Assembly (NCBI GenBank): GCA_002239025.1
Contig: MPNM01000006.1
Location: 62,001-126,000 of the forward strand
DNA from: Chloroflexi bacterium bin125
GTDB lineage: Bacteria; Chloroflexota; Dehalococcoidia; Bin125
DNA length: 64,000 bases
Direction of reading: 5' to 3'
The notes under the pieces were generated by a model, which was given only the letters and a program-made list of their open reading frames with translations, was not told the origin of the DNA and searched no databases. Numbering within the stretch: the first letter of the stretch is position 1; every line of letters begins with the position of its first letter. Of this stretch, positions 15,424-63,088 are shown piece by piece. Position numbers and translations under genes: made by a program.

Positions 15424-15499
15424 TGGTGCCGAGGGGCAGAGTCGAACTGCCGACACCACGATTTTCAGTCGTGTGCTCTACCAACTGAGCTACCTCGGC
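15424..15499 (-). tRNA. tRNA-Phe (GAA)
   Basis: On the minus strand a 76-nt cloverleaf is complete: acceptor arms GCCGAGG / CCTCGGC, D-arm GCTC-AGTTGGTA-GAGC, anticodon stem CACGA/TCGTG around CTGAAAA (anticodon GAA), T-arm GGCAG-TTCGACT-CTGCC, discriminator A and an encoded CCA (15424-15426). It stands between the oxidase gene and the kinase pair, with no sign of a repeated 3' end nearby that would mark it as an integration site. Confidence 0.95.
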
Positions 15500-24947: not shown

Positions 24948-26675
24948 ATGGTCGGCGAACGACGGCTGAGGACGGAACAACGGCGACTCTTGCGACTGAT
25001 TGGGCTGATGCCGCTGGCATCGGCTGGCGACCTGGCCCCGATCCTGAATGTCCGGGAACCAGCCGTGCGGGCGCGACTGGCGAGGTTGCGCCAGGGCGGA
25101 TGGGCGGTGTCGATTCGGCGCGGGATGACCGAGCCGCCACAACCGCGCTGGTTCCTGACCAGCCGGGCGCTGGCCGAGCTCTACGCGACCGACCACACGC
25201 ACCTCTCCCCGCGTGAACTGGCCCGCGGCGACGGGGGCGAGCCGCCCGCCGCGAGCCGAGCCGACTGGCTGCCGGTCGCGCTCGACCATGAGCATCTCGG
25301 ACACAATGAAGACCTGGGCCTGTCGCCATTCCGGTCGGGCTCGGATCAGGCGGCGGACAGACACGAGCATCCGCCCTGGACGGCGACGGCTCGCGGGGTG
25401 CAGGTCGCCTTGCGCCGGCTGGCGATCCTGGAGACGGTCTACCGCCTCGCGCCGGCGCTCACAGCGGACGGCCACCTGGACCGGCCGGAGTGGGACGCGC
25501 CTCCCGGGTTGAGCGACTTCCGCCTGATGCGACTGGGCGGCTACTTCTGGGCCGTGGCTCGCTACGGCGCGGATTGCTGGATCCCCTTTAGCTACGCCGG
25601 GCTGCACGCTACCGAGCGGGTGCTCAGACGCAAGCAGCAGCACCGTTTCTGGAATCTCGATTGCTACTCGGCCGAGCGCGAGCGCCTCTTCCGGATCAGC
25701 AACCGGGTCTTCTACGAGGACCCCGAGCAGGCGGTCGAGCCCTCGGCCCTGGTCGTGGTCGGCGCCGACCGCTGGGCGGTCGACCTGGCGCGGCGCACGC
25801 TGGACGCGGAGACGCCGACGCTGTTCTGCACGCCCGACCGGCGCTGCTCGGGGCCGGTCGAGCCGCGAGTGTCGCGCGACCTCGTCTCCGACCCCCAGAC
25901 GCGGCTCAACCCGGGCCGCTCCGAGCGGTTGGCCCGCTGGCTGCGCCGCCAGCCCGACCTGGACACGCTCAACGGTCTGCTGGCCTACCGGTTGTTCTTG
26001 CTGATCGCCGAGTTCCCGGCGATGCGCGCCGGATGGCTGCGCGAGATATCGGGTGGCTCGGCAACCGGCGTCGGAGCGATTCTGCAGCGCTTCCTGGCTA
26101 CGGGATTGGCCGCGAGATACGAGGGACGCTACTACCTGGCCGAGGCGGGCATGCGCCGCGCCGCCAACCTGAGCCGGGTACGGCCGGCTCAGATTCGCAA
26201 CCGACACGGCGCCTACCTGCGGCGCGCCTACCGACTGCACGAGCGGCGCCATGACGAGGGCGTAAATCGCCTGGTGCTCGGGTTTGCTCGCGAGGGCGTC
26301 CGGGCTTATGCCGGCTGGCGCGGCGAGGTCAATATCCCCCGCCTGACCCAACTGCGACCCGACCTGCTGCTGCTCGTGACCAGTGGTCCGTTCGGTCCCG
26401 GACCCTATGCGCTGGAGTTTGAGCGAAAGGCCGAGTATCGGAGTGGTGTTGCCCGCAAGCTCGGCCCTCACCGGCGCGCGGCGGCGGTCGGACAGGGACT
26501 GCCTGTGCTGTTCGTCTGCGAGACGGAGCGTGCTGCGGCGCGGTTCATTGCCGCCCGCGGCCGGCTGCCGCTGCTCGCGACTTCGCTCGAAGCGGCAGTG
26601 GCCGGACCGCTGACCGGAGCGGGCAGCGTATGGAGCGAAGCGGGCCGTTCGGTGCGGCTTGAGTGCGAGTCCTGA
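24948..26675 (+). CDS. replication-relaxation family protein (first of two)
   Basis: A 575-residue protein resembling the replication-relaxation (Replic_Relax) family of mobile elements. An N-terminal winged-helix region (RRLLRLIGLMPLASAGDLAP...) leads to a second wHTH-like segment (YRLFLLIAEFPAMRAGWLRE). The C-terminal nuclease-like core has LRPDLLLLVTSG, YALEFERKAEYRSG and GLPVLFVCETERAAARF. These proteins are thought to act in replication or nicking of the element, though the biochemistry is poorly known. A distant paralogue lies at 54781-56466. The start is taken at the ATG at 24948, after GGGACGGAG. Three GGACA boxes lie upstream. Confidence 0.72.
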   Translation: MVGERRLRTEQRRLLRLIGLMPLASAGDLAPILNVREPAVRARLARLRQGGWAVSIRRGMTEPPQPRWFLTSRALAELYATDHTHLSPRELARGDGGEPPAASRADWLPVALDHEHLGHNEDLGLSPFRSGSDQAADRHEHPPWTATARGVQVALRRLAILETVYRLAPALTADGHLDRPEWDAPPGLSDFRLMRLGGYFWAVARYGADCWIPFSYAGLHATERVLRRKQQHRFWNLDCYSAERERLFRISNRVFYEDPEQAVEPSALVVVGADRWAVDLARRTLDAETPTLFCTPDRRCSGPVEPRVSRDLVSDPQTRLNPGRSERLARWLRRQPDLDTLNGLLAYRLFLLIAEFPAMRAGWLREISGGSATGVGAILQRFLATGLAARYEGRYYLAEAGMRRAANLSRVRPAQIRNRHGAYLRRAYRLHERRHDEGVNRLVLGFAREGVRAYAGWRGEVNIPRLTQLRPDLLLLVTSGPFGPGPYALEFERKAEYRSGVARKLGPHRRAAAVGQGLPVLFVCETERAAARFIAARGRLPLLATSLEAAVAGPLTGAGSVWSEAGRSVRLECES

Positions 26676-26791: not shown

Positions 26792-26848
26792 TCTCCAACC
26801 GGACTGACGCGATGTGGGCCGTGGGGCCCGTGAGGGAAAGCGTGCCGA

Positions 26849-26962
26849 GTGTTCGCCTTCTGGCAACGCCGTTCTAGCGACTCGCGTGCGCAGGTTGATC
26901 GGCGGCGCTGGCCGCGAGATCGTAAGTTAAGCCCCCCCCCCCCCGAGTTACGAACCACATAA
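26849..26962 (+). CDS. N-terminal reading frame of the giant protein, out of phase in this sequence
   Basis: A short frame from GTG at 26849 (GAGGGAAA about 10 bp upstream) gives MFAFWQRRSSDSRAQVDRRR, then WPRDRKLS and a proline run encoded by the C tract. With the 13 C residues present it ends at TAA 26960-26962 after 37 residues. If the tract had 12 or 15 C it would continue without a stop through SYEPHNAHPQPLPVRRRAAQ, LVVTLAILLIAALAGAQPAF and into the giant protein. The basic N-terminus plus hydrophobic core is a complete signal peptide, so this is most likely the true start of the gene at 27042, caught in the OFF state, or an assembly slip. Confidence 0.7.
   Translation: MFAFWQRRSSDSRAQVDRRRWPRDRKLSPPPPELRTT
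26932..26944 (+). repeat. poly-C tract (13 C), candidate phase-variation switch
   Basis: Thirteen consecutive C lie inside the 5' coding part of the giant FN3 gene. The distance from GTG 26849 to the downstream frame (27042) is 193 bases, one more than a multiple of three; losing one C (or gaining two) restores a continuous frame. Homopolymer C or G tracts of this length slip readily during replication and are the standard basis of on/off surface-protein switching in other bacteria. Confidence 0.75.
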
Positions 26963-27041
26963 CGCACATCCGCAACCGCTCCCTGTCCGACGCCGGGCCG
27001 CCCAACTTGTCGTCACCCTTGCGATCCTGCTGATCGCGGCA

Positions 27042-30000
27042 TTGGCCGGCGCGCAGCCCGCGTTTGGCCAGGACGAACCGCAGCCCCCTGCCGCGCCCGG
27101 CGGATTGCACGTCTCCACCGAGATCGGCTCACTTGATGTCGATGTCGACTGGGACGACGTGGACGACGCCACGCGCTACGTGGTCCGCTGGCGGACAGCG
27201 GAACCGGGCGGGAAGCTCAACAAGGGCGAAGAGGTCTCGGTCTCCAGGGCGGAAATCACGGTCGCGGGCACCGGCGCCTGGGTCGTCCGGGTGCAGGCCT
27301 GTAACGACGCGGGCTGCGGAACGCCCAGCGCCGAGAAGTTCGAGGTCGAACCGGCGCCCGAGCCGGAATCGACGCCTGAGCCGGAGTCCGAGCCTGAGCC
27401 TGTTGCAGACACTGAGAACGCGCAGGCGCAGACCGAGCTGACGGTCTCCGTCCGCGCCAGCGCGACCGCTCCCTTCGCCGGCGAGCAAGTCCGCTTCAGC
27501 GCCGACATCGACGGCGCGCCCGAGGGCGAACAACCGACGTATCAATGGGAGTTGAGCTACGGCGGCGACCTCTGGTTCCCCAGCGGCAGCGACCCGACCT
27601 TCTCCTACCTGCCGCACCAACCCGAGACGGCCAGCGTGCGGGTCAGCGTGCGCTATGCCTCAGGGGTGTCGGCCAGGTCGGCGCCGCTGAGCGTGACCTG
27701 GCGGGTGTTCGAGCCCAAACCGCAACCGCCGACCGCGGAGGGCGCCAGGGGAGCGGTAGAGCAGGTCTCGGTCACGATCCGCCACGACGAGACCGTGCCC
27801 AGACCGTTCCAACCGGGCAAGCTGGTGGCGCTGGTGAGCAATCTGCCCGACGGCGAACAGCCGCGCTACCGCTGGGAGATGAACCTGGGCGGCGACTGGT
27901 GGGTCGTCGGCAGCGAGCGCGCGTTCCCCTGGAGCGCCACCCTGAAAGAGACGGTCCGGTTCCGGGTGACGGTCTTCATTGGATCGGACCAAGCCGTCAC
28001 CTCTGACGAGCTAGCACTCGACGGGACGGCAGGCAAGGCCACCCGGGACGTGAACGCGGCGGCGACATCCGTGGCCCTGATCGGAAACAGCGGGCAGACG
28101 TCCTTCGGGAACCCGCAGCTCACCTCCGATCGAGCTCAGGCGTTCACGACGGGCAGCCACAGCACGGGCTACAAGCTGACCAGCGTGCAGATCGACTTCA
28201 AGACGAATGCGGGGGCGGCATACGCGTCCGACGTGAAGATCATGAACGACGGCGGTGCTGGACCGGGCAGCACCACGCTGGGCACGCTGACCGATCCGGC
28301 GTCGTTGGTCGCGGGGCTCAATGAGTTCACGGGAGACGTCGACCTGGCCGCCAGCACGACCTATTACGTCGTCATTGACTCGTCTGTTGCCGACTTCGAC
28401 ACAATATTGGACGGAACATCATCGAATGACGAGGATTCGGGCGGCGCGGCCGGTTGGAGCATCGGGGATGACGGACATTCCCGGGGTGCGACCAGCACCG
28501 GCGCATGGTCCTCGAACGCAAATTCGTTGAAGATCATCGTCAACGGTTATGAGAAACAGGCGCCATCGGTAAGCAACACGGGCCAGACCTCCGTTGCGTC
28601 ACGGTCACTCGCGAACAATCTTGCCCAGGCGTTCACGACCGGGGACCATGCGAAGGGTTACACGCTCACCGCGCTCGGGTGGCGACTCTCGTCCGTCGGG
28701 ACAGCAGAGCCGAGCCATACCGTCAAGATCTGCCCTCAGAGCGGCACTGAGCCGTCCACTTCCTGCCTGGGCACGTTGGAGAACCCACTCTCTCTGACGG
28801 TCGGAACGAACCGCTTCACGGCAGCGGGCGGCGGCATAAGGCTCGACGCAAACACCACGTACTTCATGGTCCACGAACTCGTCACGGCAGGAACCGGGTC
28901 CTATGCCGCTGCGCGGACGAACTCCGACGACGAAGACTCGGGCGCGGCCTCCGGGTGGAGCATCGGCAACGACTTCCTGGTCGATGTCAGCGGCACGTGG
29001 CACCCCCTCACAAGTCCATTGCAGATCTACATCGAGAGCGATCCGAACATCGCGCCCGCCGTGGCCAGCGCCGAGATCGACGGCACCAAGCTGGTGCTCA
29101 CCTTCGACGCGGATCTCGACACCGCTTCGGGCACGGCCGCGGGCGCGTTCACGATCAAAGCCGACGGGACCGCGCAGACGGCCACCGCGATCACGATCGC
29201 CGACAGGACGGTCACGCTCACGGTGCCGACGGTCACCCCGGGCCAGACCGTCACCGTCAGCTACACCAAACCCGCCTCGAGCCCGCTCAAGGGCGCGGAC
29301 GACTCGGAGGTGGATGGGTTCACCGATCAGGCGGTGACCAACAACACCTTGTCGATACGGCTGGTCCAAAACACCTCTCAAGCGGACACAGTTAATGGAC
29401 CGCTCGACGACGATCGGGCGCAATCGTTCACGACGGGCAGCAAGAGTTTGGGCTACCGGCTGACCAGCGTGCAGCTCGGCGTCGACGTGGCAGGGTCGCC
29501 GAGCTATACCGCGACGATCGTGCGCGACACCGGCGCCGGACCGGGCAACCTCGCGGTGGCCACGCTGGCGAAGCCGTCTTCGTTGACCGTGGGGTATGAG
29601 AACGAGTTCACGGGCGAGGTCGACTTGCTCCCCAGCACGACCTACTTCTTCAAGGTCGACATGTCAGCGAGCGCCCTCGCCGTGGAGCTGAAGCTAGCGC
29701 TCGTGAACGGCGAAGTCGGCGAGCCCGGCTGGAGCATCGGCAACGACCATCACGAACGACTTTGGAGCAGCAACGGCGCCTGGAGTGCCGTATTTCAGTC
29801 GTTGAAGATCCAGGTCAACGGCTATGCGAAGGCGCCCGCCCTGGACAAAGCGGAGATCGACGGCGCCGAGCTGGTGCTCACCTACGACGGGAATCTCGAC
29901 ACCGCTTCGGCCACGGCCCCGGGCGCGTTCACGATCAGCGTGGGCGGCGGGGCCGCCCAGGCGGCCACCGCGATCACGATCGCCGGCAAGACGGTCACCC

Positions 30001-33000
30001 TCACGGTGCCGGCCGTGACCGACCAGCAGACGGTGACCGTCACCTACACCAAACCCGACGACAACCCGCTCAAGGGCAGCAACGCGGAGGCGGTGGCCGG
30101 CTTCACCGATCGGCCGGTGACGAACAACCCGTCAATCACGGCGCGTGCCCTGATCGGAAACGGCCTGCAGCCAGGCGCCGCCGGCTTATTCCTTGACGGC
30201 GATCGAGCCCAGGCGTTCACCACGGGCCCCAACAGCGATGGCTACAAGCTGACCAGCATCCAGCTTGGATTCGGTACAGCAGGGTCGCCGACCGATTACG
30301 CGGTGAAGATCATGAACGACGGAGGTTCTGGGCCGGGCACCACCAAGTTGGCCGAATTGGTCGGCCCGACGTCGCTTACCGTGGGGCTCAACGAGTTCAA
30401 GGCCTCTGGCACAGGAATCGATCTGGCCGCCAACACGACGTACTACATCCTTGTGGACCTGGGCGCGAGCGACAGCACGTTCACCCATACGACAACGACA
30501 TCCAAAAGCGAGGACACGGGCGGCGCGAACGGCTGGAGTATTGCGAACAGTTACTACAAGCGAAATGTCAACAACAGCGGCTCGTGGACTGAGTTCATCA
30601 CAAGAATACTGAAGTTCGTCGTCAACGGCCATCCGAAGCTTCCGGCAACCTCAGCGCTGATCGGGAACAACTCGCAGGGGGACAACTCTGAGTTCGGTTT
30701 CGACGCGGATCGGGCCCAGCCGTTCACGACGGGCACCAACAGCACGGGCTACCGGCTGAAGAACGTGCAGCTCGGCGTCAAGACGGCGGGCTCGCCGACC
30801 AATTACAAGGTGAAGGTCATGTCGGACAGCGGTTCGGGGCCGGGCGCCGAGTTGGCCACGCTGGAGAACCCGTCGTCTTTGACCGTGGGGCTCAACAGTT
30901 TCACCGGCGATGTCGACCTGACCCCCAACACGACGTACTACATCGTCGTGGACCAGACCGATATCAGCACTGCGAAGTGGAAGCGCACGGCGTCGGATGA
31001 TGAGGACTCGGGCGGTGCGGCCGGCTGGAGCATGGGGGACAGGTTCTGGACCCGAAGCTATGGCTCGGCCGGCGCATGGCGCGAGGCGGTGACCTCAGAC
31101 ATCTTGAAGGTCGTCGTCAACGGCTATGCGAAGCCGACGTCGTCCACGGCGACGGCCGACGCGGGCGAGGACCAGACGGTGCAGACCGGCGACCCGGTGA
31201 CCCTGGACGGCAGCGGCTCGGCCACCACCAAGGCGGGCGCCACCCTGACCTACACCTGGACCCAGACCAGCGGCCCGGCGGTGACGTTGAGCGACGCCAC
31301 CGCTGCGAGGCCGACCTTCACCGCGCCCACATACCGGGCGGATTACGTGTTCTCGCTGGTCGTCGACGACGGCGACGGCATCAGCATGGCGGACACAGTG
31401 ATGGTCGCGGTGCGGCCGCCGATCAACCCGGCCACCGCGCCCTGTCAGAGTCCCGACGAAGGCGCCGCGGTCGACGCCACAGTGATCTCAACTCCCACCA
31501 CCACCGCCGCCGCCGTCACCTGGGGCGCGACGACCACCGGCGGCGCCGGCACGGCCGACCTGTACTTCTGCTCGCCCGACGGAACCCGGGAGCTGGTCGG
31601 ATCCGCAATCGCTGCCGGGACCACCCGGACCAAGTCCGGACTTGAGAGCGGCACGAAGTACTGGGTCGGGGCGCTCAAGACCACGACCAGCGACGGCTCG
31701 GTCTCCTGGTCGGGCTGGACGGCCGCGACCACCACCGGTAGCGCCTCGATCGTGGCGGTGCAGATCGCCTCGACGCCGCGCTGGGACGCCGACGAGGACG
31801 GGGAGCCGGAGACCTACGGGCGGGGCGACACGATCCAGATCGATGTGACCTACAGCCAGGACGTCACCGTCACGGGCGCGCTCGACAAGGTTCGCGTGCG
31901 CCTCGATGTGGGCACTGACGACTCGGATTTGTCCAACAGCCAGGAAGTGGCCAAGGCCGCGAGCCACAGCGGAACCAGGCTGCGTTTCGAGTACACCGTC
32001 AAGACGAACGATGTGGACTCCGACGGTGTCTGGGTGCAGACCCAGAACGCGATGAGCGACAAGATCATCTTCTTGGCCGGCGGCGCGACCCTCAAGAACG
32101 GCGCCAACAACGCCAAGCTGACCAAGAGCGGGCTGCCGACCAGCGGCGACCCGAAGCACAAGGTCGATCACCAGCACTTCGCGACCGTTCCGGCGTTCCC
32201 CAACGCGACGGAGACCCTGACGATCGACGAGAACAGCGCCGAGGGCGTCACCGTCGGCACGGTGACGGCGACCGACGCCGACGGCGACACGCTCTACTAC
32301 AGCCTGGACACCACCACCGGCGACCATGCCCGCTTCACGGTCGGGCAGACGGGCGCCGACGCGGGCACGATCAAGGTCGGCCCCGGGCAGAACTTCGACT
32401 TCGAGACGCCGCCGAACAGCTACACGGTGACCGTCAACGTCACCGACCGCAAGGATTCCGACGGCAACGCCGAGACGCCTCCGTACACCATCGATGACAC
32501 GGTCGTGGTCACGATCAATGTGATCAACGTCGAGGAGCCGCCCGACGCGCCGACCGTCACCGCGGTCACGGGGGCCTCGACGACCAGCGTCACCGTCACC
32601 TGGACGGCGCCGAGCGACACCGGCGCGAAGGCGATCACCGACTACGACCTGCGCTACTACGAGGGCAGCGCCGAGCCCACCGACGCGGCCGACTGGGTCG
32701 AGGAGGGCGAGACCAACGGCCACACCCACACCGGCACCGCGACCACCGCGACGATCACCGGGCTCGCCGAGGACACCACCTACCAGGTCCAGGTGCGTGC
32801 CGAGGGCGACGGCGAGGGCGCCTGGTCGACCACCGGCTCGGGCGCGACGCTGACCCCGCCGGCGGCGCCTCGCGGCCTCTGGGCCCAGGCGTCCACCACG
32901 TTCTTGATCCTGCAGTGGTCCAACCCGGGCGATTCGACGATCATCAGGTACCAGACCCGCCACAGCACCGACGGCGGCACGACCTGGACCGGCTGGACCA

Positions 33001-36000
33001 ACCTCCACGGCAGCAACGCGTCCACCGTCTGGACCAACCTGTCTAACTTGACCAGCGGCACCTACTACGACGTCGAGTTGCGTACGGTGCACAGTATCGG
33101 CGGGAGCTGGAGCGCCTCGACCGGCGGCACGCCCTCAACCTCGGGAATATTGGGGCCCTCCAACCTGCGCGCCACCGCCGCGGACGGCCAGGTCACCCTG
33201 AGATGGACCCGGAACTCTTCTGCGACCAGGCAGCGGGTTCGCCAGCGGGTGGCCGGCGGGAGTTGGTCCGATACGTTGCTCGGCGGGGGCGCCGGCACGC
33301 ACACCGCGACGGGTCTGACCAACGGCACGACCTACCGCTTCGAGGTACAGACCGGACAAACCAACTCATGGGACAAGTCGAGTACCATCGACGTCACTCC
33401 GACAGCGCGGGCCGTTGCGCCGGGCAACTTCACCGCCCTGCCCGGCGACCGCTCCATCTCGTTGAGCTGGGACAATCCGGGTGACGCGGGGATCACCGCG
33501 TACCAGATCCGGGTCAGCGACGACGGCGGCGCCACCTGGGATCCGGACTGGGCCGACATCACCGGCAGCGACGCGAACACGACCATGCACAGCCTGTCGA
33601 GCCTGACCAACGGCACGACCTACACGATCGAGGTGCGCGCGTCGCGGGGCATGATTCACGGCGCGGTCAGCTCCGCGACCGCCACTCCCAACCTGCCCCC
33701 GCCCGCTCCCAGCGGTCTCAGTTCAACCGCTGGCGACGGGCTAGTCGACCTGAGCTGGACCGATCCGGGTGACTCAAGCATCACCAAATACCAGACCCGC
33801 CACAAGGCAGGGTCCGGCGCCTTCAACGCGTGGGCCGACATCGCCAGCAGCGGCGCGACCACGACCTCGCATCGGGTGACCGGATTGACCAACGACACGA
33901 GCTACACGATCGAGGTCAGAGCGGTCCGTAGCGGCCCGCTGTACGGCGCGTCGTCCAGCACCACCGCCATCCCGAGGCCGACCGTTCCTGCGGCGCCGGC
34001 CAGTTTCACCGCGACCCCCGGCGACGGCCGGGTCGATCTGGCCTGGACCGATCCCAGCAACAGCCAGATCACCGCATACCAGTACCGCTACAAGGCGGGC
34101 ACTGGGAGCTGGAACCCCAACTGGACCGACATCTCCGGCAGCGGCGCGACCACCACCATGTACACGGTGATGGGCCTGACCAACGACACCACCTACACCT
34201 TCGAGGTGCGCGCCAAGGCCGGGACCACCATCGTCAGCGATGCCAGCAGCGCCACCGCGACGCCCCGGCCTACGGCTCCGCCGGCGCCGGCCAGTTTCGC
34301 AGCGACCGCCGGTGACGGGCGGGTGACGTTGAACTGGACCGACCCGAGCGACACTCAGATCAGCAGGTACCGGTACCGCCAGAGCACCGACGGCGGAATG
34401 AACTGGTCGTCGTGGATGGTGATCTCCGGCAGCGGCGCCGCCACGACCATGCACACGGTCACCAGTTTGACAAATGACACCGACTACTCCTTCGAGCTGC
34501 AGGCCCGCCGGGGCACGGCCACGTGGGGTGCGTCCGGCAGCGCCACCGCCACGCCGCGTCCGGCGGCTCCGTCGGCGCCGGCCAACCTCAGCGCCGATGT
34601 CGGCGACAAACAGATCACGCTGCGCTGGAACAACCCCAACGACAACCGGATCACCGAGTACCGGTACCGCCAAAGCACCGACGACGGCGTGAACTGGTCC
34701 AACTGGACCGACATGGGGGCCGGTGCGGCCACCGTCTCGTACACAGTGACCAGTTTGACCAACGACCAGGAGTACAAGTTCGAGGTGGAGGCCCGCCGCG
34801 GGACGCAGACGTACGGCTCCGCCAGCAGCGTGACGCAGACGCCCCGCCCGCCGGCGCCGCCCGCGCCCGCCGGTCTGACCGCCGATCCCGGCAACACAAC
34901 GGTCACGCTCGACTGGACCGACCCCTCCGACACGCTGATCAGCGTCTACCAGTACCGCCAGAGCACCGACGGCGGCGCAACCTGGAACCCGGACTGGGGC
35001 GACATCTCTGGCAGCGACAAGGACACCATCACCCACGCGTTGACCGGGCTGACCAACGACACGACCTACACGTTCGAGGTACGCTCGCGCCGGGGCACGG
35101 CAACGACGGGTCCCGCGAGCCGTGTGACCGTCACGCCGAAGGCGCCGCCGCCCGCGCCGCGCGGCCTCTGGGCCCGGGGCCTGGACGGGGAAGTCGAGCT
35201 TCGCTGGTCCAACCCGGGCGATTCGACGATCACCAAGTACCAACTCCGCCAGAGCACCGACGACGGAGCCACCTGGAACCCCGACTGGACCGACATCCCC
35301 GACAGCGGCGCGAACACCACCATGCGCGACGTGGTCAGCCTGACCAACACCACCTACTACGACTTCGAGTTGCGGGCGGTGCGCGGCACGAGCAACGCGG
35401 GCACGTCCGCCGCGATCGGCGTCGAGCCCAGCAACAGCGGACTATCGGGGCCCAACAACCTGCGCGCCACGGCCAGCGATACCCAGGTCACCCTGGCATG
35501 GGATCAGGCCACGCTCGCGACCCGGTACCGGGTCCGGCACCGGGCCAGCACCACTACCACTTGGGAGAGCTGGACGACTATCTCGAGTGGGACCACCACC
35601 ACGCACACCCAGACGGGTCTGACCAACGGCACGACCTACCGCTTCGAGGTGCAGACCGGACAATCCGGTTCATGGGACCGGCGCAGCGCGGTCGAGGCGA
35701 CGCCGACGGAGCGGGCCGCGGCGCCGCTGAACTTCACTGCGTTGCCGGGCAACCGCACGATCATGTTGAGCTGGACCGACCCGAACGATTCGAACATCAC
35801 CAAGTACGAGTACCGCTACAAGGCGGGCAGCGGGAACTGGAACCCGGACTGGACCGTCATCACCGGCGCCGGCGCCACCACGACCATGCACACGCTGTCG
35901 AACCTGACCAACGGCACGACCTATACGGTCGAGTTGCGCGCCTCGCGGGGCACGGTGGTCGGCGCGGTCAGCTCCACCACCGCCACCCCGAACCTGCCGC

Positions 36001-39000
36001 CGGGCCGGCCGAGCGGTCTCAGCGCCACCCCGGGCGACACGAAGGTCGACCTGAGCTGGACTAATCCGTCGGACTCGAGCATCGTCAACTACCAGTACCG
36101 TGTCAGCGACGACAGCGGCATGACCTGGTCTCCGGACTGGACCGACACCGGCACGGCCACCACGACCACGTTGTCGGTGACCGGGCTGAAAAACGACACG
36201 ACCTACACGATCGAACTTCGGGCGGCCCGCAGCGGCCGGCTCTACGGTCCGGCGGCCAGCAGGACCGCCACCCCCAGGCCGACGCCGCCGCTGGCGCCGA
36301 CCAGTTTCACCGCGACCGCCGGCGACCGTGAGGTCGAGTTGGCTTGGGCCGATCCCAGCGACACCCTGATCACCAAGTACCAGTACCGCCAGAAGGTGGG
36401 CACCGGGAACTGGGCCAACTGGACCGACATCTCCGGCGCTGCCACGACCATGCACACGGTGACCGGTTTGACCAACGACACCACCTACTCTTTCCAGGTG
36501 CGGGCCCGGCGCGGCACGGTCACCCACGGCCCAGCCAGCAGCAGCGCCTCCGCGACGCCGCGGCCGACGGCTCCGCCGGCGCCCAGCGGGCTGACAGCCA
36601 CGGCCGGCGATGGCAAGGTCGACTTGAGCTGGACCGATCCGAGCGACAGTCTGATCAGCAAGTACCGGTACCGGGTCAGCGACGACGGCGGCATGACCTG
36701 GGGCAACTGGACGGTGATCTCCACCAGCAGCGCGGCCACCACCATGCACACGGTGACCGGCCTGACCAACGACACCCCCTACAGTTTCGAGCTGCAGGCC
36801 CGCCGCGGCACGGTCACCGTCGGTCCGGCCGCCAGCGCGACGGCGACGCCGCGACCGGCGGCGCCGCCGGCGCCAACCAACCTCCGCGCCGAGGTCGGTG
36901 ACGGTCAGATCACGCTGCGCTGGAACAATCCCAACGACAGCCGGATCAGCGTGTACTCGCACCGCGAGAAAGAGGTCGGCGGCAACTGGAGTCCGAACTG
37001 GACCGATATCCCGATGAGCAACGCCAACACGACTTCCTTCGTGAGCACCGGTCTGACAAACGACGACACCTACCACTTCGAGGTGCGCGCCCGCCGCGGA
37101 ACGGTCACGTACGGCGCGGAAAGCAGCGTGACCGGGACGCCGCGGCCGGACCCGCCGCCGGCACCGAAGGGGCTGAGCGCCGATCCGGGCAACGCGCAGG
37201 TCACGCTCAACTGGACCGACCCCATGGATCCGGACATCCGCGTCTACGAGATCCGCCAGAAGGCCGGCAACGCCGCCTGGACGGCGTGGGCTGACATCTC
37301 CGGGAGCGACAAGGACACCATCACCCACATCGTGTCGAGTCTGGACAACGACACGAGGTACCGGTTCGAGATACGCGCCGTCCGCGGCGCAGTGACGAGC
37401 GGGGACGCGGCCGGCGTGACCGTCACGCCGAAGGCGCCGCCACCGGCGCCGCGCAACCTGCGGGCCACGCCCGCAGCCGGTCAGATCGTCGTGGACTGGA
37501 CCAACCCGAACGACAGCACGATTACGAAGTACGAGTTCCGCCAGAGCACCGACGGCGGAACCAACTGGAACCCTGACTGGGGCGCCATCTCCGGCAGCGG
37601 GTCGGCTACCACGTCGTTGACGCGTACTGGTCTGACCGACGGCACGTACCACGACATCGAGGTGCGAGCGGTGCGCGGCTCAGCCAATGCGGGCACGGCC
37701 GCTGCGATCGGTGCCGAGCCGTTGAGCACGGGTCCCGCGGCTCCCGCCGCGTTGCGAGCCACCGCGGCTGACGGTCAGGTCACCCTCTCCTGGAGCGAGG
37801 GCGGATCGACGGTGGACAGGTACCGCGTCCGCAATCGGCCGAGCGGCGGGTCGTGGTCAGGTTGGACGGTCAAGTCCGGCCGGACCACCACCACGCACAC
37901 CGAGATGGGCTTGACCAACGGCACGGCCGTCCGTTTCGAGGTGGCGGCAGGCACCTCCGCACCTGCGTTCGGACCCGCCAGCAGTATCGAGGCGACGCCG
38001 ACCGAGCGACCGGCCGCTCCGGTCAATCTCGTGCCCTACGCCCGCCCGGCCTACGTCTATCTGACCTGGGACGATCCCAACGACCCGCTAATCACCGAGT
38101 ACCAGTTCCGCCGGAGCACTGACGGCGGAAGCACCTGGAGTCCGAACTGGACCAAGGTCGCCGGCAGCGGCGCGACCACGACCTGGTTCAACTTGGCTAC
38201 CTTGCTCAACGGCACGACCTACACCATCGAGGTCCGAGCGGTCCGGGGCGCCAGGCTCGGCGTCGCTGGCCGGGTGACGGCCACGCCGCGCACACCGCCC
38301 TCGACGCCGGCGGGCTTCACGGCCACATCAGGCGATAACGAGGTAGTGCTGGGCTGGACCAACCCTGGTGACGCCTCGATCAGCAAGTACCAGTCCCGCC
38401 ACCAGGCCGACGGCGAGACCAACTGGACGGACTGGACAGACATCGACGGCAACAGTGCCGCGCACACCGTGACCGGCCTGACCAACGACACGACCTACAC
38501 GTTCCAGCTGCGAGCGGTCAGGGATCGGGACAACGGAGGCTTGGCAGCCAGCGCCACGGCCACGCCGAAGCCGCCGCCGCCGGCCGCGGTCACCGGCCTC
38601 ATGCCCACCACCGGCGCCACCCCCCGCGACGGCGGGATTGCGCTGAGCTGGACCAACCCCGGCGACACGCGGATCAGCAGGTACGAGTACCGGGTGCAGC
38701 GGGACGGCCAGAGCGCCTGGAGGCCGGATTGGACTGAGGTCCCCGGCAGCAGCGATTCCACGGCCTCGTACATCGTCACCGGGTTGCTGAACGACACGAC
38801 CTATACGGTCGAAGTGCGAGCGGTGCGGGGAGCGGACACGGCGGGTGATGCGGACAGTGTGACCATCAAGACGCCCAAGCCTGCGCCCAGGGGTCTCATC
38901 GCCAGGGCGGACAACGGGCAAGTCCACTTGAGCTGGACCGATCCCGGCGACGATGAGATCACCACGTACCAGATCCGCCAGAGCACCAACGATGGCAGCA

Positions 39001-41249
39001 CCTGGACGACCTGGGCTGACATCACCGGCAGCGACAAAGACACCGTCGCCCACACGGTCTCCGGCCTGGCCAATGGCACGGCGGTCACCTTCGAAATCCG
39101 GGCGCACGTGCTCGGTACTCCACCGCAGGAGGGAGTGGCGGCCCAGATCGAGTCGATGCCGATCGACACATCCTCCGTTCCGGCCGCCCCCGAGGAGGCG
39201 CGGGCCACAGCCGGCAACTCCCAGGTGACGTTGATATGGGCCAATCCGCAGGACGAGACGATCACCAAGTACCAGTTCCGCCATCGCCTGATAGCCGGGA
39301 CGCTCGAGGGGGCGATCGGCAACGCGGAGAACTGGGATGATATCCCCGACAGCGACGCAAACACGACCTCGTACACCGTGACCGAACTCGAGAACGGCAA
39401 CGTCTATCAGTTTGATGTACGCGCCGTGTACGACACGGCAGACTTCGGCGCTGTGACCAGCATGATCGCCACGCCCAAGCGCCCCGTGTCGCAGTCCAGC
39501 TCTGGCGGCGGTGGCGGAGGCGGTGGCGGCGGAGGCGCGCGCGCGCAGCCTTCGGAGGAGGAATTCGACTGGAACGTGACCCGCGACATCGAAGCGCTTG
39601 ACGGAGAGAACGACTTCCCCACGGGTCTCTGGTCCGATGGGGTGATGCTCTGGGTCGTTGAGAACGCAACGAGCGGCCCAGACCGGGTCTTCGCCTACGC
39701 ACTGGAGGACGGCGCCCGTCAAGCGGACCTGGAGTTCGAGTTCGAGCGCCGCAACCGCTTCGCCCACGGCATCTGGTCCGACGGCGAAGTCGTCTGGATC
39801 GCCGACGCGGGCCAGGACAAGCTGTTCGCGTACCGGCTCGACTCAGGGGAGCGGCTGGAAGAGCGGGACTACACGCTCAACGAGCGCAACCGCGACCCGC
39901 GCGGGATCTGGTCGGACGGCGAGGTCATCTACGTGCTCGACTCTGGCAAGGACGCGCTGTTCGCCTACGACGTGCAGAGCGGCGAACTGGACGCCGAGTA
40001 TCCGCTCGACCGGCTCAACCGCAGCCCGCGCGGGATCTGGTCGGATGGAGTCACGATCTGGGTCTCCGATGACGGGGCCAAACGGCTCTTGGCCTATCGA
40101 ATCGTTGAGGTCGAGGTCGAAGGCGAGGAGCGCTCACAGGTCCTACAGCGCCACGAAGCCGAAGAGTTCACGTTCCGCTCGCTGCTGAGTTCTGGCAACA
40201 GCGACCCGCGCGGGATCTGGTCGGATGGCGATGTGATGTACGTCGCAGACGACCGTGATGACCGCGTCTACAGCTACAACATGCCCGACGCGATCGACGC
40301 TCGCCTCGCTTCGCTCAGTCTTGGCGACTTCGACCTCGCAGAGTTCTCTCCGCGGCAGCTGAGCTACCAGGTCTCCATCGAGGGGGACATCACACAGACG
40401 ACCGTCGTGGCCGCGCCGGTCTACGAGGCCGCAACAGTCGAAATCGCCCCCGGCGACGCGGACGGCGATCCAGAGAACGGCCACCAGGTCGCGATCGAGG
40501 ATGGGCTGGCGATCAATGTCACGGTGACCTCCGAGGACGACGACCGCACGCAGGTTTACACGGTCGTCTTCGAGCGCGCCAACCGAGCCCCGCTGGGCAG
40601 CGAGATTCCAGCGCTGGAGCTGACGGCCAAGGGTGATCCAGTCGAGTTCAGCCTCAGCGACTACTTCAGCGACCCGGACGGCGATCCGCTCAGCTACACG
40701 CTGGGCGAGCCAACCGACGCCAGTGTGGTCAGCCTGGTCGAATCAGACGGCGTGCTCAGCGTCACACCGCTTGAAGCCGGCGCCACCTCGTTCGCACTGA
40801 GCGCCTCAGACGGCGAGTTGCGTAGTGAACCCGTCGAAGTCGAGATCAGCGTCGAAGCGGTTCCCGTCGTTGCCCAGGCGCCTGAGGTCCGAATCGGCGC
40901 GAGGCGAGTCGTCAATGGGCGAGTCGAGTTCGGCCTCGGAGTGCGAGCTGCGGACGGCGCCTGGCAACCACTGATCTTGCCGCCGCGGCGCTTCCTGCCG
41001 GCGGACGCTGAGCTGGACCGCTGGCTGGTCAGCACCCCCATCGAGGTCGGCCCTGACGATGCGCCACGGACGCTGCGCATCGCCGCTCGACAACTGGCCA
41101 GCGGCAGCGTCGAGTTCGCTCTGCTCGTGCGGCTCGAAGGGGGCGGCTGGAGCGCTCGGCTGCTGCCATTCGCCCGCTTCCTCCATAGCGACGCTGCCCT
41201 GGACCACTGGCTCTACAGCACCCCACTCAGCAGCGCCGAACCGCGGTAA
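27042..41249 (+). CDS. giant fibronectin type III surface protein (about 4,735 residues, true start upstream)
   Basis: Extracellular adhesin-like protein. Layout by position: signal-peptide end (AQPAFG-Q), FN3 (27090-27340), Pro/Glu linker, two Ig-like domains (27430-28020); five ~160-residue repeats with SDRAQAFTTG...GYKLTSVQ (28065-31135), interleaved with two SwmB-like domains (29041-29360, 29824-30130); a PKD-like domain (31140-31420); a cadherin domain (32190-32540); about 24 FN3 domains (32540-39480); an 11-Gly linker (about 39503-39540); a propeller-like region of RGIWSDG repeats (39565-40290); a cadherin-like beta-sandwich and Ig-like domain; and two copies of a C-terminal ~60-residue unit. 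The listed start is a TTG without ribosome site, after the signal core; the functional start is probably GTG 26849, separated by the poly-C tract. No LPXTG motif, so anchoring is unclear. Confidence 0.88.
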   Translation: MAGAQPAFGQDEPQPPAAPGGLHVSTEIGSLDVDVDWDDVDDATRYVVRWRTAEPGGKLNKGEEVSVSRAEITVAGTGAWVVRVQACNDAGCGTPSAEKFEVEPAPEPESTPEPESEPEPVADTENAQAQTELTVSVRASATAPFAGEQVRFSADIDGAPEGEQPTYQWELSYGGDLWFPSGSDPTFSYLPHQPETASVRVSVRYASGVSARSAPLSVTWRVFEPKPQPPTAEGARGAVEQVSVTIRHDETVPRPFQPGKLVALVSNLPDGEQPRYRWEMNLGGDWWVVGSERAFPWSATLKETVRFRVTVFIGSDQAVTSDELALDGTAGKATRDVNAAATSVALIGNSGQTSFGNPQLTSDRAQAFTTGSHSTGYKLTSVQIDFKTNAGAAYASDVKIMNDGGAGPGSTTLGTLTDPASLVAGLNEFTGDVDLAASTTYYVVIDSSVADFDTILDGTSSNDEDSGGAAGWSIGDDGHSRGATSTGAWSSNANSLKIIVNGYEKQAPSVSNTGQTSVASRSLANNLAQAFTTGDHAKGYTLTALGWRLSSVGTAEPSHTVKICPQSGTEPSTSCLGTLENPLSLTVGTNRFTAAGGGIRLDANTTYFMVHELVTAGTGSYAAARTNSDDEDSGAASGWSIGNDFLVDVSGTWHPLTSPLQIYIESDPNIAPAVASAEIDGTKLVLTFDADLDTASGTAAGAFTIKADGTAQTATAITIADRTVTLTVPTVTPGQTVTVSYTKPASSPLKGADDSEVDGFTDQAVTNNTLSIRLVQNTSQADTVNGPLDDDRAQSFTTGSKSLGYRLTSVQLGVDVAGSPSYTATIVRDTGAGPGNLAVATLAKPSSLTVGYENEFTGEVDLLPSTTYFFKVDMSASALAVELKLALVNGEVGEPGWSIGNDHHERLWSSNGAWSAVFQSLKIQVNGYAKAPALDKAEIDGAELVLTYDGNLDTASATAPGAFTISVGGGAAQAATAITIAGKTVTLTVPAVTDQQTVTVTYTKPDDNPLKGSNAEAVAGFTDRPVTNNPSITARALIGNGLQPGAAGLFLDGDRAQAFTTGPNSDGYKLTSIQLGFGTAGSPTDYAVKIMNDGGSGPGTTKLAELVGPTSLTVGLNEFKASGTGIDLAANTTYYILVDLGASDSTFTHTTTTSKSEDTGGANGWSIANSYYKRNVNNSGSWTEFITRILKFVVNGHPKLPATSALIGNNSQGDNSEFGFDADRAQPFTTGTNSTGYRLKNVQLGVKTAGSPTNYKVKVMSDSGSGPGAELATLENPSSLTVGLNSFTGDVDLTPNTTYYIVVDQTDISTAKWKRTASDDEDSGGAAGWSMGDRFWTRSYGSAGAWREAVTSDILKVVVNGYAKPTSSTATADAGEDQTVQTGDPVTLDGSGSATTKAGATLTYTWTQTSGPAVTLSDATAARPTFTAPTYRADYVFSLVVDDGDGISMADTVMVAVRPPINPATAPCQSPDEGAAVDATVISTPTTTAAAVTWGATTTGGAGTADLYFCSPDGTRELVGSAIAAGTTRTKSGLESGTKYWVGALKTTTSDGSVSWSGWTAATTTGSASIVAVQIASTPRWDADEDGEPETYGRGDTIQIDVTYSQDVTVTGALDKVRVRLDVGTDDSDLSNSQEVAKAASHSGTRLRFEYTVKTNDVDSDGVWVQTQNAMSDKIIFLAGGATLKNGANNAKLTKSGLPTSGDPKHKVDHQHFATVPAFPNATETLTIDENSAEGVTVGTVTATDADGDTLYYSLDTTTGDHARFTVGQTGADAGTIKVGPGQNFDFETPPNSYTVTVNVTDRKDSDGNAETPPYTIDDTVVVTINVINVEEPPDAPTVTAVTGASTTSVTVTWTAPSDTGAKAITDYDLRYYEGSAEPTDAADWVEEGETNGHTHTGTATTATITGLAEDTTYQVQVRAEGDGEGAWSTTGSGATLTPPAAPRGLWAQASTTFLILQWSNPGDSTIIRYQTRHSTDGGTTWTGWTNLHGSNASTVWTNLSNLTSGTYYDVELRTVHSIGGSWSASTGGTPSTSGILGPSNLRATAADGQVTLRWTRNSSATRQRVRQRVAGGSWSDTLLGGGAGTHTATGLTNGTTYRFEVQTGQTNSWDKSSTIDVTPTARAVAPGNFTALPGDRSISLSWDNPGDAGITAYQIRVSDDGGATWDPDWADITGSDANTTMHSLSSLTNGTTYTIEVRASRGMIHGAVSSATATPNLPPPAPSGLSSTAGDGLVDLSWTDPGDSSITKYQTRHKAGSGAFNAWADIASSGATTTSHRVTGLTNDTSYTIEVRAVRSGPLYGASSSTTAIPRPTVPAAPASFTATPGDGRVDLAWTDPSNSQITAYQYRYKAGTGSWNPNWTDISGSGATTTMYTVMGLTNDTTYTFEVRAKAGTTIVSDASSATATPRPTAPPAPASFAATAGDGRVTLNWTDPSDTQISRYRYRQSTDGGMNWSSWMVISGSGAATTMHTVTSLTNDTDYSFELQARRGTATWGASGSATATPRPAAPSAPANLSADVGDKQITLRWNNPNDNRITEYRYRQSTDDGVNWSNWTDMGAGAATVSYTVTSLTNDQEYKFEVEARRGTQTYGSASSVTQTPRPPAPPAPAGLTADPGNTTVTLDWTDPSDTLISVYQYRQSTDGGATWNPDWGDISGSDKDTITHALTGLTNDTTYTFEVRSRRGTATTGPASRVTVTPKAPPPAPRGLWARGLDGEVELRWSNPGDSTITKYQLRQSTDDGATWNPDWTDIPDSGANTTMRDVVSLTNTTYYDFELRAVRGTSNAGTSAAIGVEPSNSGLSGPNNLRATASDTQVTLAWDQATLATRYRVRHRASTTTTWESWTTISSGTTTTHTQTGLTNGTTYRFEVQTGQSGSWDRRSAVEATPTERAAAPLNFTALPGNRTIMLSWTDPNDSNITKYEYRYKAGSGNWNPDWTVITGAGATTTMHTLSNLTNGTTYTVELRASRGTVVGAVSSTTATPNLPPGRPSGLSATPGDTKVDLSWTNPSDSSIVNYQYRVSDDSGMTWSPDWTDTGTATTTTLSVTGLKNDTTYTIELRAARSGRLYGPAASRTATPRPTPPLAPTSFTATAGDREVELAWADPSDTLITKYQYRQKVGTGNWANWTDISGAATTMHTVTGLTNDTTYSFQVRARRGTVTHGPASSSASATPRPTAPPAPSGLTATAGDGKVDLSWTDPSDSLISKYRYRVSDDGGMTWGNWTVISTSSAATTMHTVTGLTNDTPYSFELQARRGTVTVGPAASATATPRPAAPPAPTNLRAEVGDGQITLRWNNPNDSRISVYSHREKEVGGNWSPNWTDIPMSNANTTSFVSTGLTNDDTYHFEVRARRGTVTYGAESSVTGTPRPDPPPAPKGLSADPGNAQVTLNWTDPMDPDIRVYEIRQKAGNAAWTAWADISGSDKDTITHIVSSLDNDTRYRFEIRAVRGAVTSGDAAGVTVTPKAPPPAPRNLRATPAAGQIVVDWTNPNDSTITKYEFRQSTDGGTNWNPDWGAISGSGSATTSLTRTGLTDGTYHDIEVRAVRGSANAGTAAAIGAEPLSTGPAAPAALRATAADGQVTLSWSEGGSTVDRYRVRNRPSGGSWSGWTVKSGRTTTTHTEMGLTNGTAVRFEVAAGTSAPAFGPASSIEATPTERPAAPVNLVPYARPAYVYLTWDDPNDPLITEYQFRRSTDGGSTWSPNWTKVAGSGATTTWFNLATLLNGTTYTIEVRAVRGARLGVAGRVTATPRTPPSTPAGFTATSGDNEVVLGWTNPGDASISKYQSRHQADGETNWTDWTDIDGNSAAHTVTGLTNDTTYTFQLRAVRDRDNGGLAASATATPKPPPPAAVTGLMPTTGATPRDGGIALSWTNPGDTRISRYEYRVQRDGQSAWRPDWTEVPGSSDSTASYIVTGLLNDTTYTVEVRAVRGADTAGDADSVTIKTPKPAPRGLIARADNGQVHLSWTDPGDDEITTYQIRQSTNDGSTWTTWADITGSDKDTVAHTVSGLANGTAVTFEIRAHVLGTPPQEGVAAQIESMPIDTSSVPAAPEEARATAGNSQVTLIWANPQDETITKYQFRHRLIAGTLEGAIGNAENWDDIPDSDANTTSYTVTELENGNVYQFDVRAVYDTADFGAVTSMIATPKRPVSQSSSGGGGGGGGGGGARAQPSEEEFDWNVTRDIEALDGENDFPTGLWSDGVMLWVVENATSGPDRVFAYALEDGARQADLEFEFERRNRFAHGIWSDGEVVWIADAGQDKLFAYRLDSGERLEERDYTLNERNRDPRGIWSDGEVIYVLDSGKDALFAYDVQSGELDAEYPLDRLNRSPRGIWSDGVTIWVSDDGAKRLLAYRIVEVEVEGEERSQVLQRHEAEEFTFRSLLSSGNSDPRGIWSDGDVMYVADDRDDRVYSYNMPDAIDARLASLSLGDFDLAEFSPRQLSYQVSIEGDITQTTVVAAPVYEAATVEIAPGDADGDPENGHQVAIEDGLAINVTVTSEDDDRTQVYTVVFERANRAPLGSEIPALELTAKGDPVEFSLSDYFSDPDGDPLSYTLGEPTDASVVSLVESDGVLSVTPLEAGATSFALSASDGELRSEPVEVEISVEAVPVVAQAPEVRIGARRVVNGRVEFGLGVRAADGAWQPLILPPRRFLPADAELDRWLVSTPIEVGPDDAPRTLRIAARQLASGSVEFALLVRLEGGGWSARLLPFARFLHSDAALDHWLYSTPLSSAEPR
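32862..39480 (+). repeat. higher-order repeat: eight-FN3 block present nearly three times
   Basis: Within the giant gene the FN3 domains repeat in blocks of eight. Block starts marked by APRGLWAQA (about 32865), APRGLWARG (about 35154) and APRNLRATP (about 37446) are spaced 2289-2292 bp. Inside each block the order is the same: the GP-NLRATA domain is second, the domain with NFTALPG (or NLVPYA) third, then those ending GLTNDTTY..., and so on. The third block is shortened. This shows segmental duplication of a 763-residue unit rather than random domain growth. Confidence 0.8.
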
Positions 41250-60513: not shown

Positions 60514-60839
60514 TGCTGCGCCGAACACTCGCGATCCTCACGCTGGGCGCTGCGGCCCTGGTCACGACGGCGGCCGCGCCCGACGTGGACGCGGCCGAGC
60601 GAGCGATGCTCGACGCCTTCGACGCGGCGCTGACCGCGGTCGCCTACGCCGCCTCCGGCCTGGCCCTGTTCGGCCTGGTCTGGGCCGGCTTCCTGCTCAT
60701 GGCCGACGGCGCGGAGGGCCGCAGCGCCCGTGGCCGCTCGGCCGTCTTCCTGACTGTCGCTGGACTTGCGATCGCACTCTCAGCCAAGGGCCTCGCGGCG
60801 CTGATCTCGGCCGGCGTGATCCCGATTCCGATTCCTTGA
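60513..60839 (+). CDS. second VirB2-like small membrane protein
   Basis: A 108-residue protein: a signal-like N-terminus (LRRTLAILTLGAAALVTTAA), then two hydrophobic helices (VAYAASGLALFGLVWAGFLL and AVFLTVAGLAIALSAKGLAA). This is the VirB2 pilin pattern with a cleavable leader. Its ATG overlaps the preceding stop (TGATG). With the one at 58375 the operon has two pilin-like subunits. Confidence 0.7.
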   Translation: MLRRTLAILTLGAAALVTTAAAPDVDAAERAMLDAFDAALTAVAYAASGLALFGLVWAGFLLMADGAEGRSARGRSAVFLTVAGLAIALSAKGLAALISAGVIPIPIP

Positions 60840-60856
60840 ACGAAGGAGATGTTCCG

Positions 60857-63088
60857 ATGAAACGACTGTTTGCCAGAACGAACACCCTCGCGGCGCCAAC
60901 ACTAGGGGGCGCCGCTCTGCATGAGCCGCCCGATGACGCGGCCCGGCCTGAGCAGCCGCTGCCTGAACTGCCGCTCTGCTTCATGCTCTCCCACGTTGAG
61001 CCGGACGGCCCGGTGCGCTTGGACGGGGTCAAGCTGACCCTGACCGAGCTGATGGGGCTGGAACTGGACGGGCCCAAGCTGGGCGCCTTCGCGGGCCTGC
61101 TCAACGCCTGCGACTTCCCCCTGCAGCTCTTGGTGCGCCAGCACCCGCCCGACCTGGAGCGAATGCGGCGCGAGCTGGCAGAGGCGCAACCGGGCGACCT
61201 GCCGGAGCAGACCCGTGACGCGGCCGAGTCCCAACGCCGCCTCTTGACCGAGTTGGAGTCGCGCGAGGGCATCCTCGACCGCCGCTTCTATGCGGTCTGC
61301 GAGCAGGAGCACGCGCAGGAGCTGCGCGGCCTCCTGGCCCGCACCGGGCTCTCGATCCATCCACTCAAGGATGAAGCGCTCGGTCGCCTCGTGGTCGCCT
61401 CGGCCCTGGGCGGCTCGCCCGCGCGCAGCGGACGAGACGAGCCGGTCGAAGTCCTGCTCAACCACCGCGACATCCGTCTCGGCGGACGCCTGGCCCGCTC
61501 GCTGCATCTGGCCAAGTGGCCGCGTTCGCTCGCGCCCGGATTCCTGCAGCAGCTGATGGCGACCGGCGCGCCGATGGACATCGCCCTGCACCTGGGGCCG
61601 ATCCCATCCGAACAGGCGGCGCGCCAGCTGGAGTGGCAGAAGGTCAGGTTCGAGTCGGCCCGTTCACTCTCGCTCAGGCGCGGCAAGACGATGTCGCCCG
61701 AGGCCGAGATCGCTCTCGAAGACGTGAGCCGGCTGCGCGACGACGTGCAGCGCGGCCGTGAGCGGCTGTTCCACGCCTCGCTCTCCCTGACCCTGCACGC
61801 GGACGACCCCGAGACGCTGGACGAGCTGACCCAGCGCGCCTCGGCCCACTTCGCCGCCGCCCTGGGCCAGCTCGATCCTTTGCCTTTCCGCCAGCGCGAA
61901 GGCCTGCTCTCGACCCAGCCGCTGGCGCTCAACGCGGTCGCGGCCTGGCGCACGCTGGACACCTCGTCCGTGGCCCGCTGCTTCCCCTTCTCGCCGCCCG
62001 ACCTCGACACCCGTTCGGGCGCGCTCTACGGGATCGACATGCGCGCCTGCGCCCCGATCGTCTACGACCCCTGGGACGGCACCCACCTCAACGCCAACAC
62101 AGCGGTGCTGGCGCGGTCCGGCTCGGGCAAGTCGTTTGCGACCAAGTTGGGCGTCTTGCGCGGCATCTGCCGGGGCGTGGTCGCCTACGTGATCGACCCT
62201 GAGGGCGAGTACGCCGACATGGCCCGCTCGGCCGGCGGGCGGGTGCTCTCGCCCGGTGTCGCGGGTCAGGGCATGAACCCGTTCGTGCTCGACCGCACCG
62301 ACCCGGAGGAACTGCTCCAGCGGATCGGCTCGCTCAGGCGGCTGATCGAGGTGATGGTCGGCGAGCGGCTGGGGGCCGAGCGGCGGGCGGCGCTCGATCA
62401 CGCGCTGGCCAGCTACTACGCGCGGCCCTCGGAACGCACCGGGTTCCGCGACTTCTACCGCTTCCTGGAGGGGGACGATCCCGAGGGGCTGGCCAAGCTG
62501 TTGCGCCCATTCGCCTCGGGCAGCCTCAGGCACCTGCTCTCGGACGAGGGCGACGACCTGCTGCACAACGAGGCCCTGGTCACGGTGTTCGACCTCAGGC
62601 TGCTCGAACCGGAACTCAGACCGGCGGCGGCGATGGTCTGCACCGAGACCGTCTGGGCGGCGGCCGCCCGCGACCCTCGTCCGCGCCTGCTGGTCGTGGA
62701 CGAGGTCTGGTCGATCATGCAGCATCCCGAGGGCGCCGCGTTCATGGTCTCGATGGCCAAGCGGGCGCGCAAGCACCGCCTCGGCCTGCAGTTCATCACC
62801 CAGGACGTGCAGGACCTGCTCTCGGAGGACCACTCGCGCACGATCACCGGGCACTCCGGCCGAGCGCTCTTGCAGAACGCCGCGTTCAAGCTCCTGCTCC
62901 AGCAAGACGCAGCTGCGATCTCTACCGTCGCGGACGCGTTCGACCTGCCCGAGGACCTGCAGCGTTGGCTCGTCTCCTGCCCCAGAGGCGATGGACTCTT
63001 GCTGGCCAAGGGCGAACGGTTCCCGATCCGGATCGAGGCGACGGCCGAGGAGACCGAAGTGATCGAGTGGCGGCCGGGCCGGCACTGA
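60857..63088 (+). CDS. VirB4/TraC-type conjugation ATPase
   Basis: A 743-residue secretion ATPase. The Walker A motif ARSGSGKS is at about 418-425 after the typical YGIDMRACAPIVYDPWDGTH lead-in; Walker B LLVVDEVW is at about 610; the arginine-rich KRARKHRLGLQFITQDVQDL and ALLQNAAFKLLLQQD segments follow, all VirB4 hallmarks. It energises pilus assembly and substrate transfer at the inner membrane. The ATG 60857 follows GAAGGAG; a TTG seven codons upstream is less likely. Confidence 0.92.
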   Translation: MKRLFARTNTLAAPTLGGAALHEPPDDAARPEQPLPELPLCFMLSHVEPDGPVRLDGVKLTLTELMGLELDGPKLGAFAGLLNACDFPLQLLVRQHPPDLERMRRELAEAQPGDLPEQTRDAAESQRRLLTELESREGILDRRFYAVCEQEHAQELRGLLARTGLSIHPLKDEALGRLVVASALGGSPARSGRDEPVEVLLNHRDIRLGGRLARSLHLAKWPRSLAPGFLQQLMATGAPMDIALHLGPIPSEQAARQLEWQKVRFESARSLSLRRGKTMSPEAEIALEDVSRLRDDVQRGRERLFHASLSLTLHADDPETLDELTQRASAHFAAALGQLDPLPFRQREGLLSTQPLALNAVAAWRTLDTSSVARCFPFSPPDLDTRSGALYGIDMRACAPIVYDPWDGTHLNANTAVLARSGSGKSFATKLGVLRGICRGVVAYVIDPEGEYADMARSAGGRVLSPGVAGQGMNPFVLDRTDPEELLQRIGSLRRLIEVMVGERLGAERRAALDHALASYYARPSERTGFRDFYRFLEGDDPEGLAKLLRPFASGSLRHLLSDEGDDLLHNEALVTVFDLRLLEPELRPAAAMVCTETVWAAAARDPRPRLLVVDEVWSIMQHPEGAAFMVSMAKRARKHRLGLQFITQDVQDLLSEDHSRTITGHSGRALLQNAAFKLLLQQDAAAISTVADAFDLPEDLQRWLVSCPRGDGLLLAKGERFPIRIEATAEETEVIEWRPGRH

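Follow-up and report, generated by a model that had tools for sequence, protein, structure and literature searches.

A predicted poly-C phase-variation switch at a giant secreted-protein gene in Chloroflexota and related tracts in its family

A run of 13 cytosines separates the proposed start codon of a giant secreted protein from its signal peptide in the window, i.e., the whole analyzed stretch of 64,000 nucleotides, which belongs to contig C19 in a draft genome (G000; 66 contigs, 3.68 Mb). Judging by its sequence and by the company it keeps, this tract is very likely to be a contingency (phase-variation) locus and to belong to a group of poly-C/G switches found in two or more genera of the family. 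As a predicted layout and as a lineage-wide system, the switch is well supported, but it remains unproven as a process: slippage in living cells, use of the GTG codon at 26849, surface exposure of the product and an adaptive role are all inferred, with neither reads nor protein data at hand. Under this hypothesis, slipped-strand mispairing would alter the number of cytosines; a tract of 12 or 15 C would place the leader initiated at GTG 26849 in frame with the signal peptide, and a fibronectin-III protein some 4,800 residues long would be made and secreted, whereas at 14 C or at the assembled length of 13 C translation would end within 37-61 residues, so that no exported protein would be made. 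With a set of such switches located both at secreted-protein N-termini and in or at restriction-modification genes, the surface states, and probably the methylation states as well, would differ between sister cells.

The poly-C tract and its reading frames

The tract consists of exactly 13 C (26932..26944, plus strand) and is the sole long C run of the window; as the proposed slippage site, it is predicted to be ON at 12 or 15 C and OFF at 13 or 14 C. A first-order Markov estimate gives an expectation of 0.002 runs of 13 or more C in the window and of 0.23 C/G runs this long across all 3.68 Mb of the genome, and a search for C12 yields two overlapping matches in the window vs 0.01 expected from dinucleotide shuffles. 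The proposed leader start, GTG (26849..26851, plus strand), is the only start listed by the start scan whose upstream frame remains open as far as the tract. It is preceded, at a distance of 12 nt, by a Shine-Dalgarno-like GAGGG (26832..26836, plus strand); this is only a fair match, weaker than the Shine-Dalgarno sequences at some other tract loci, and counts against the switch. In the frame of the giant ORF (27042..41249, plus strand, listed from TTG, 4,735 aa), the same scan places a TAA codon (26928..26930, plus strand) immediately upstream of the tract and finds the first ATG, GTG or TTG only at TTG 27042, inside the hydrophobic core. The translated n-, h- and c-regions of the signal peptide, RRRAAQLVVTLAILLIAALAGAQPAFG, occupy 26988..27068 (plus strand), and the octanucleotide GAGTTACG (26945..26952, plus strand), which is shared with a second locus of this genome, directly follows the tract.

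The distance from GTG 26849 to TTG 27042 is 193 nt (3x64+1), and at 13 C the GTG frame is terminated after 37 residues by TAA at 26960..26962 (plus strand). When the tract length is varied in silico, the frame from GTG 26849 is open into the signal peptide (...LPVRRRAAQLVVTLAILLIAALAGAQPAFGQ...) at 9, 12, 15 and 18 C, stops after 36-38 aa at 10, 13 and 16 C, and stops after 60-62 aa at 11, 14 and 17 C. The first-pass annotation had read the same layout from the letters alone, and its values for the tract, the start and the 193-nt spacing are all exact; its claims that the two frames fuse into one signal peptide at 12 or 15 C (to which 9 and 18 C can be added), that translation ends after 37 residues at 13 C, and that the body frame has a TAA codon before the tract and no early start are reproduced as well. 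Two characteristics of contingency loci are thus found here: a long tract in the 5' part of the coding sequence with a repeat unit that is not a multiple of three, and, in silico only, a tract length that toggles between a full-length and a truncated product.

Homologues, genomic setting and a second locus with the same junction

The giant protein contains 21 matched fn3 stretches together with SWM, PKD-like and Cadherin-like domains. Its homologues in G010 and G014, the closest ones, have no tract and start from an ordinary ATG, with a leader upstream of the hydrophobic core. This arrangement fits the long leader proposed for the window gene, as far as can be told from sequence, and it also speaks against the switch, given that the tract is absent; the tract is therefore a lineage-specific feature of the window gene, and the switch has either arisen or been lost inside the genus. 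Homologues without a C tract and with a different start had been named beforehand as an observation that would refute the switch; this condition holds in part, through the tract-free homologues of G010 and G014 with their ordinary ATG starts, and the switch reading is otherwise supported. In G003, the contig edge falls in C48 directly before the signal peptide of the homologue, and this case is left uncounted because other contig ends of G003 also carry poly-C. By eye, a look-alike of the gene at 24948-26675, which lies beside the giant gene, adjoins the G010 homologue (L041) in the other orientation; the two genes may travel as a pair.

Several genes of the window indicate a mobile element, namely a VirB4-like conjugal transfer ATPase (60836..63088, plus strand; NCBIfam E 6e-64, below the curated cut-off), a DnaG-like primase (50832-51998), a large serine recombinase (20596-22263) and a weak replication-relaxation match (54781-56466); a helicase is also found among them. 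These matches bear out the conjugative setting suggested by the first-pass annotation, and a predicted location of the giant gene on a conjugative or integrative element is supported, with the borders and the relaxase undetermined. A tRNA-Phe gene (15424-15499 of the window, minus strand) to the left of the mobile-element genes is a possible integration site.

At the second locus (L015, G000:C32), a 1,209-aa LRR protein with the signal peptide RFLLLGLAATLSAALIALAALFLGSELASGQS is preceded by exactly the same junction, AG-C13-GAGTTACG. The AAGGAG-6nt-ATG upstream of this tract matches the frame of the protein at 12 or 15 C but not at the assembled 13 C. Beyond these two loci, no further site with the AG-C13-GAGTTACG junction was found in the window genome. 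The exact junction C9+GAGTTACG has a single match in 257 Gb of genomes, next to a rhodanese gene (L038), which was rejected as an unrelated setting, and no match in viral contigs; a C7GAGTTAC match (L027 of G018), whose C7 lies between genes near an ABC permease, was judged to be a chance occurrence. The other C/G runs of at least 10 in G000 are mostly located in intergenic G/C-rich elements. At L009, L014, L019 and other loci of this genome, such elements are repeated, with C and G runs that face each other, as do C28 and G23 in L014; they are probably repeats and perhaps in part an assembly artefact.

That the window gene is a decaying pseudogene, its 5' end broken by a frameshift, can be practically discounted: the out-of-frame state of the assembled allele and the existence of tract-free homologues would suit such decay, but the 4,735 codons downstream of the tract stay open with a coding-like composition, and the same layout recurs at the second locus and in relatives.

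Tracts across the family

The 20 genomes of the family were scanned for C/G runs of at least 11, and most of the contig-interior runs were fetched; once runs close to gaps, contig ends or one another had been excluded, a clean set of 73 tracts remained. Poly-C at contig ends or beside N-gaps (G003, G014, G017, G018, G019) was set aside as prone to artefact, and in genera g3-g5 no clean tract of this length was found. A fixed script scored the presence of a hydrophobic N-terminal segment in the open frame just downstream of each tract, with 529 C/G runs of 5-8 in the same loci as controls. Signal-peptide N-termini follow 21 of the 73 clean tracts, which come from two genera, vs 8 of the 529 control runs. 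The enrichment is seen in each genus separately, with 13/47 tracts vs 8/334 controls in genus 1 (p 3e-8) and 8/26 vs 0/195 in G015 (p 1e-8). Domains found in the secreted proteins that bear tracts are fn3, Ig-like, Calx-beta, FG-GAP and collagen; a haem peroxidase is also among these proteins. In two G015 loci with lipoprotein-like N-termini (L161, L172), the tract comes directly after the putative lipobox cysteine region, so that length changes would choose between an anchored lipoprotein and a short peptide.

A further 13 clean tracts are in or at restriction-modification genes: seven encode N6/N4 methylases (L094, L178, L132, L163, L115, L134, L169), two encode C5 methylases (L110, L179) and four are BsaWI-type endonuclease-methylase loci (L105, L117, L131, L177; L105 by sequence likeness only). 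Surface proteins and restriction-modification genes are the targets expected of contingency loci. In L117, the endonuclease and the N6/N4 methylase are fused in one intact frame with a G tract at the junction; in L105, L131 and L177, the G tract at the equivalent junction is followed right away by a stop and then by a start codon, making coupling of two genes possible.

Orthologues of a phase-variable gene should differ in tract length and frame, and this expectation is met for the methylases; for the window gene, only tract-free homologues are certain. Tract lengths are 9, 14, 15 and 15 among the N6/N4 methylase orthologues and 12, 16, 16 and 22 in the BsaWI-type family. The C5 methylase of G011, G013 and G014 is tract-free, with an intact 340-aa frame through ...NPFTPPATPE or ...NPFTPPALPE; in G004 (C16) and G015 (C17), a tract is found at these very codons, with the first and second half of the enzyme out of frame with each other. 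With and without a tract at one Pro-rich position in five species (L110, L179, L200, L202, L203), this gene offers a ready test case for tract birth.

These comparisons bear on the possibility that the length of 13 C is merely an assembly or sequencing error in a gene that is fixed at 12 or 15 C and always on. Such an error cannot be dismissed in a 66-contig draft, all the more so as several related drafts have artefact-like poly-C at contig ends; it is nevertheless unlikely, because what is unusual is the tract itself rather than its exact length, because coding for a leader requires no such run, and because tracts recur at homologous, functionally matched sites in independent assemblies, including the 6-contig assembly of G015.

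The assembled state of the tract was judged at the loci that allowed a start or an upstream domain to be assessed, with the choice of start made partly by eye. Five of the 16 judged loci are in frame, namely L124 (AGGAG-8-ATG, C12) and L135 (C12), both with a layout like that of the window locus, L175 (C17), L169 and L117. The window locus, L015, L122, L154, L161, L172, L110, L179, L132, L163 and L115 are out of frame. The proportion in frame is close to the one third that is expected for frames left to chance. With most judged loci out of frame in the assemblies, and since long homopolymers can also provoke transcriptional slippage, programmed slippage of the RNA polymerase or the ribosome comes into consideration, whereby a single DNA length would give a fixed mixture of frames and the protein would always be made, at a lower level. 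A recoding site should, however, keep its length and frame, and here both vary between orthologues and in-frame alleles exist; moreover, the tracts concentrate in two gene classes that are known for phase variation at the DNA level. Programmed slippage is accordingly considered very unlikely.

At five loci (L155, L180, L170, L109, L178), the tract is located upstream of a normal start, where it would act on transcription or RNA, in the manner of the promoter tract of opc. Along with the starts chosen by eye at several loci, these cases count against the frame switch, and together with the flank consensus described below, which is independent of coding direction, they are compatible with the view that the tract generally acts through promoter spacing, leader structure or an opposite-strand G-quadruplex, the frame relation being incidental. 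For the window gene this is highly improbable: since the first ATG, GTG or TTG of the body frame is reached only in the hydrophobic core, a start downstream of the tract would lose the signal peptide, and the tracts of L015, L124, L135, L161, L172 and the C5 methylases are coding. The slipped-strand layout proposed in the first-pass annotation, which dealt with a single locus of a far larger set, is thus upheld by the junction of the second gene, the enrichment at signal peptides, the methylase tracts and the intact tract-free orthologues; the switching itself is an inference.

The sequences that flank the tracts are biased. In G015, they approach TTTTA-Cn-GCAA, with T at -2 in 20/26 tracts vs a background of 9% (p 2e-16) and A at +3 in 17/26 (p 2e-8). 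The bias is weaker in genus 1 (TTA/CTA-Cn-G), where A is present at -1 in 29/47 tracts (p 2e-9). These tests are somewhat too optimistic because of paralogous genes. Tracts read as poly-C and as poly-G display the bias alike, so that codon choice alone is an insufficient explanation; the motif may mark the origin of the tracts, their mutability or a binding site, and no cause is established. It is conceivable, if doubtful, that this uncultured lineage carries its set of switches across genera and that their flank signature reflects a specialised process acting on specific sequences, which would seed, lengthen or maintain the tracts over and above polymerase slippage.

Loss of mismatch repair was rejected as a cause, given that MutS is present in 18 of the 20 genomes and MutL in 16; slippage is thus not explained by the absence of these genes, and mismatch repair in most genomes would damp it, which is a further point against the switch. 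The mutS gene is located at contig ends in G010, G012 and G015 (L213, L215 and L212, respectively), with no homopolymer at the break; these breaks are probably due to assembly failure at high GC.

Known systems and implications

The Neisseria gene pilC has a polyC/G tract within its reading frame (PMC5953494, citing Jonsson 1991), and in the opa genes, CTCTT repeats are located in the region that encodes the leader peptide (PMC3960869). The window locus is similar in that the repeat is in the 5' coding part, in opa in the leader-peptide codons themselves, and that slippage would shift the frame of a surface protein on or off. The proteins and the bacteria are unrelated, however, and the window gene codes for a giant fn3 protein on a putative conjugative element of an uncultured lineage in which switching is only inferred. 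In meningococcal opc, poly-C is in the promoter (PMC3960869); this too is a poly-C tract at a surface-protein gene, and it resembles the loci with a tract before a normal start (L155, L180, L170), but it acts on transcription, unlike the window tract, which separates the start codon from the signal peptide. Restriction-modification genes are the second classical class of phase-variable genes, and DNA methyltransferases that vary through simple repeats (phasevarions) have been surveyed for types I and III (PMC7394358). The tracts in or at L110, L179, L163, L132, L115, L169, L134 and L117, with out-of-frame alleles among them, are similar to these; in contrast to the surveyed systems, the present lineage also has C5 methylases and BsaWI-type loci, and there are no methylome or expression data. 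Out-of-frame methylase alleles, as expected of phasevarions, are present in relatives (L110, L179, L132, L163, L115) and not in the window genome.

A search of the open-access literature for phase variation, homopolymers and Chloroflexota (the phylum presumed in the first-pass annotation) in combination found no paper, and the Chloroflexi matches that were opened are incidental. Most known cases of simple-repeat phase variation come from host-associated bacteria, pathogens in particular. The mechanism is already known; the lineage and the scale appear to be new, that is, undescribed in the open-access literature searched.

The annotation of such genomes calls for caution, in that giant secreted ORFs without a start may be out-of-frame alleles rather than pseudogenes. 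Given that one of the switches is apparently carried by a conjugative element, it could move between hosts. If the proposed switching is real, the literature understates how widespread contingency loci are, and the consensus genomes of this family would conceal on/off mixtures of surface and methylation states.
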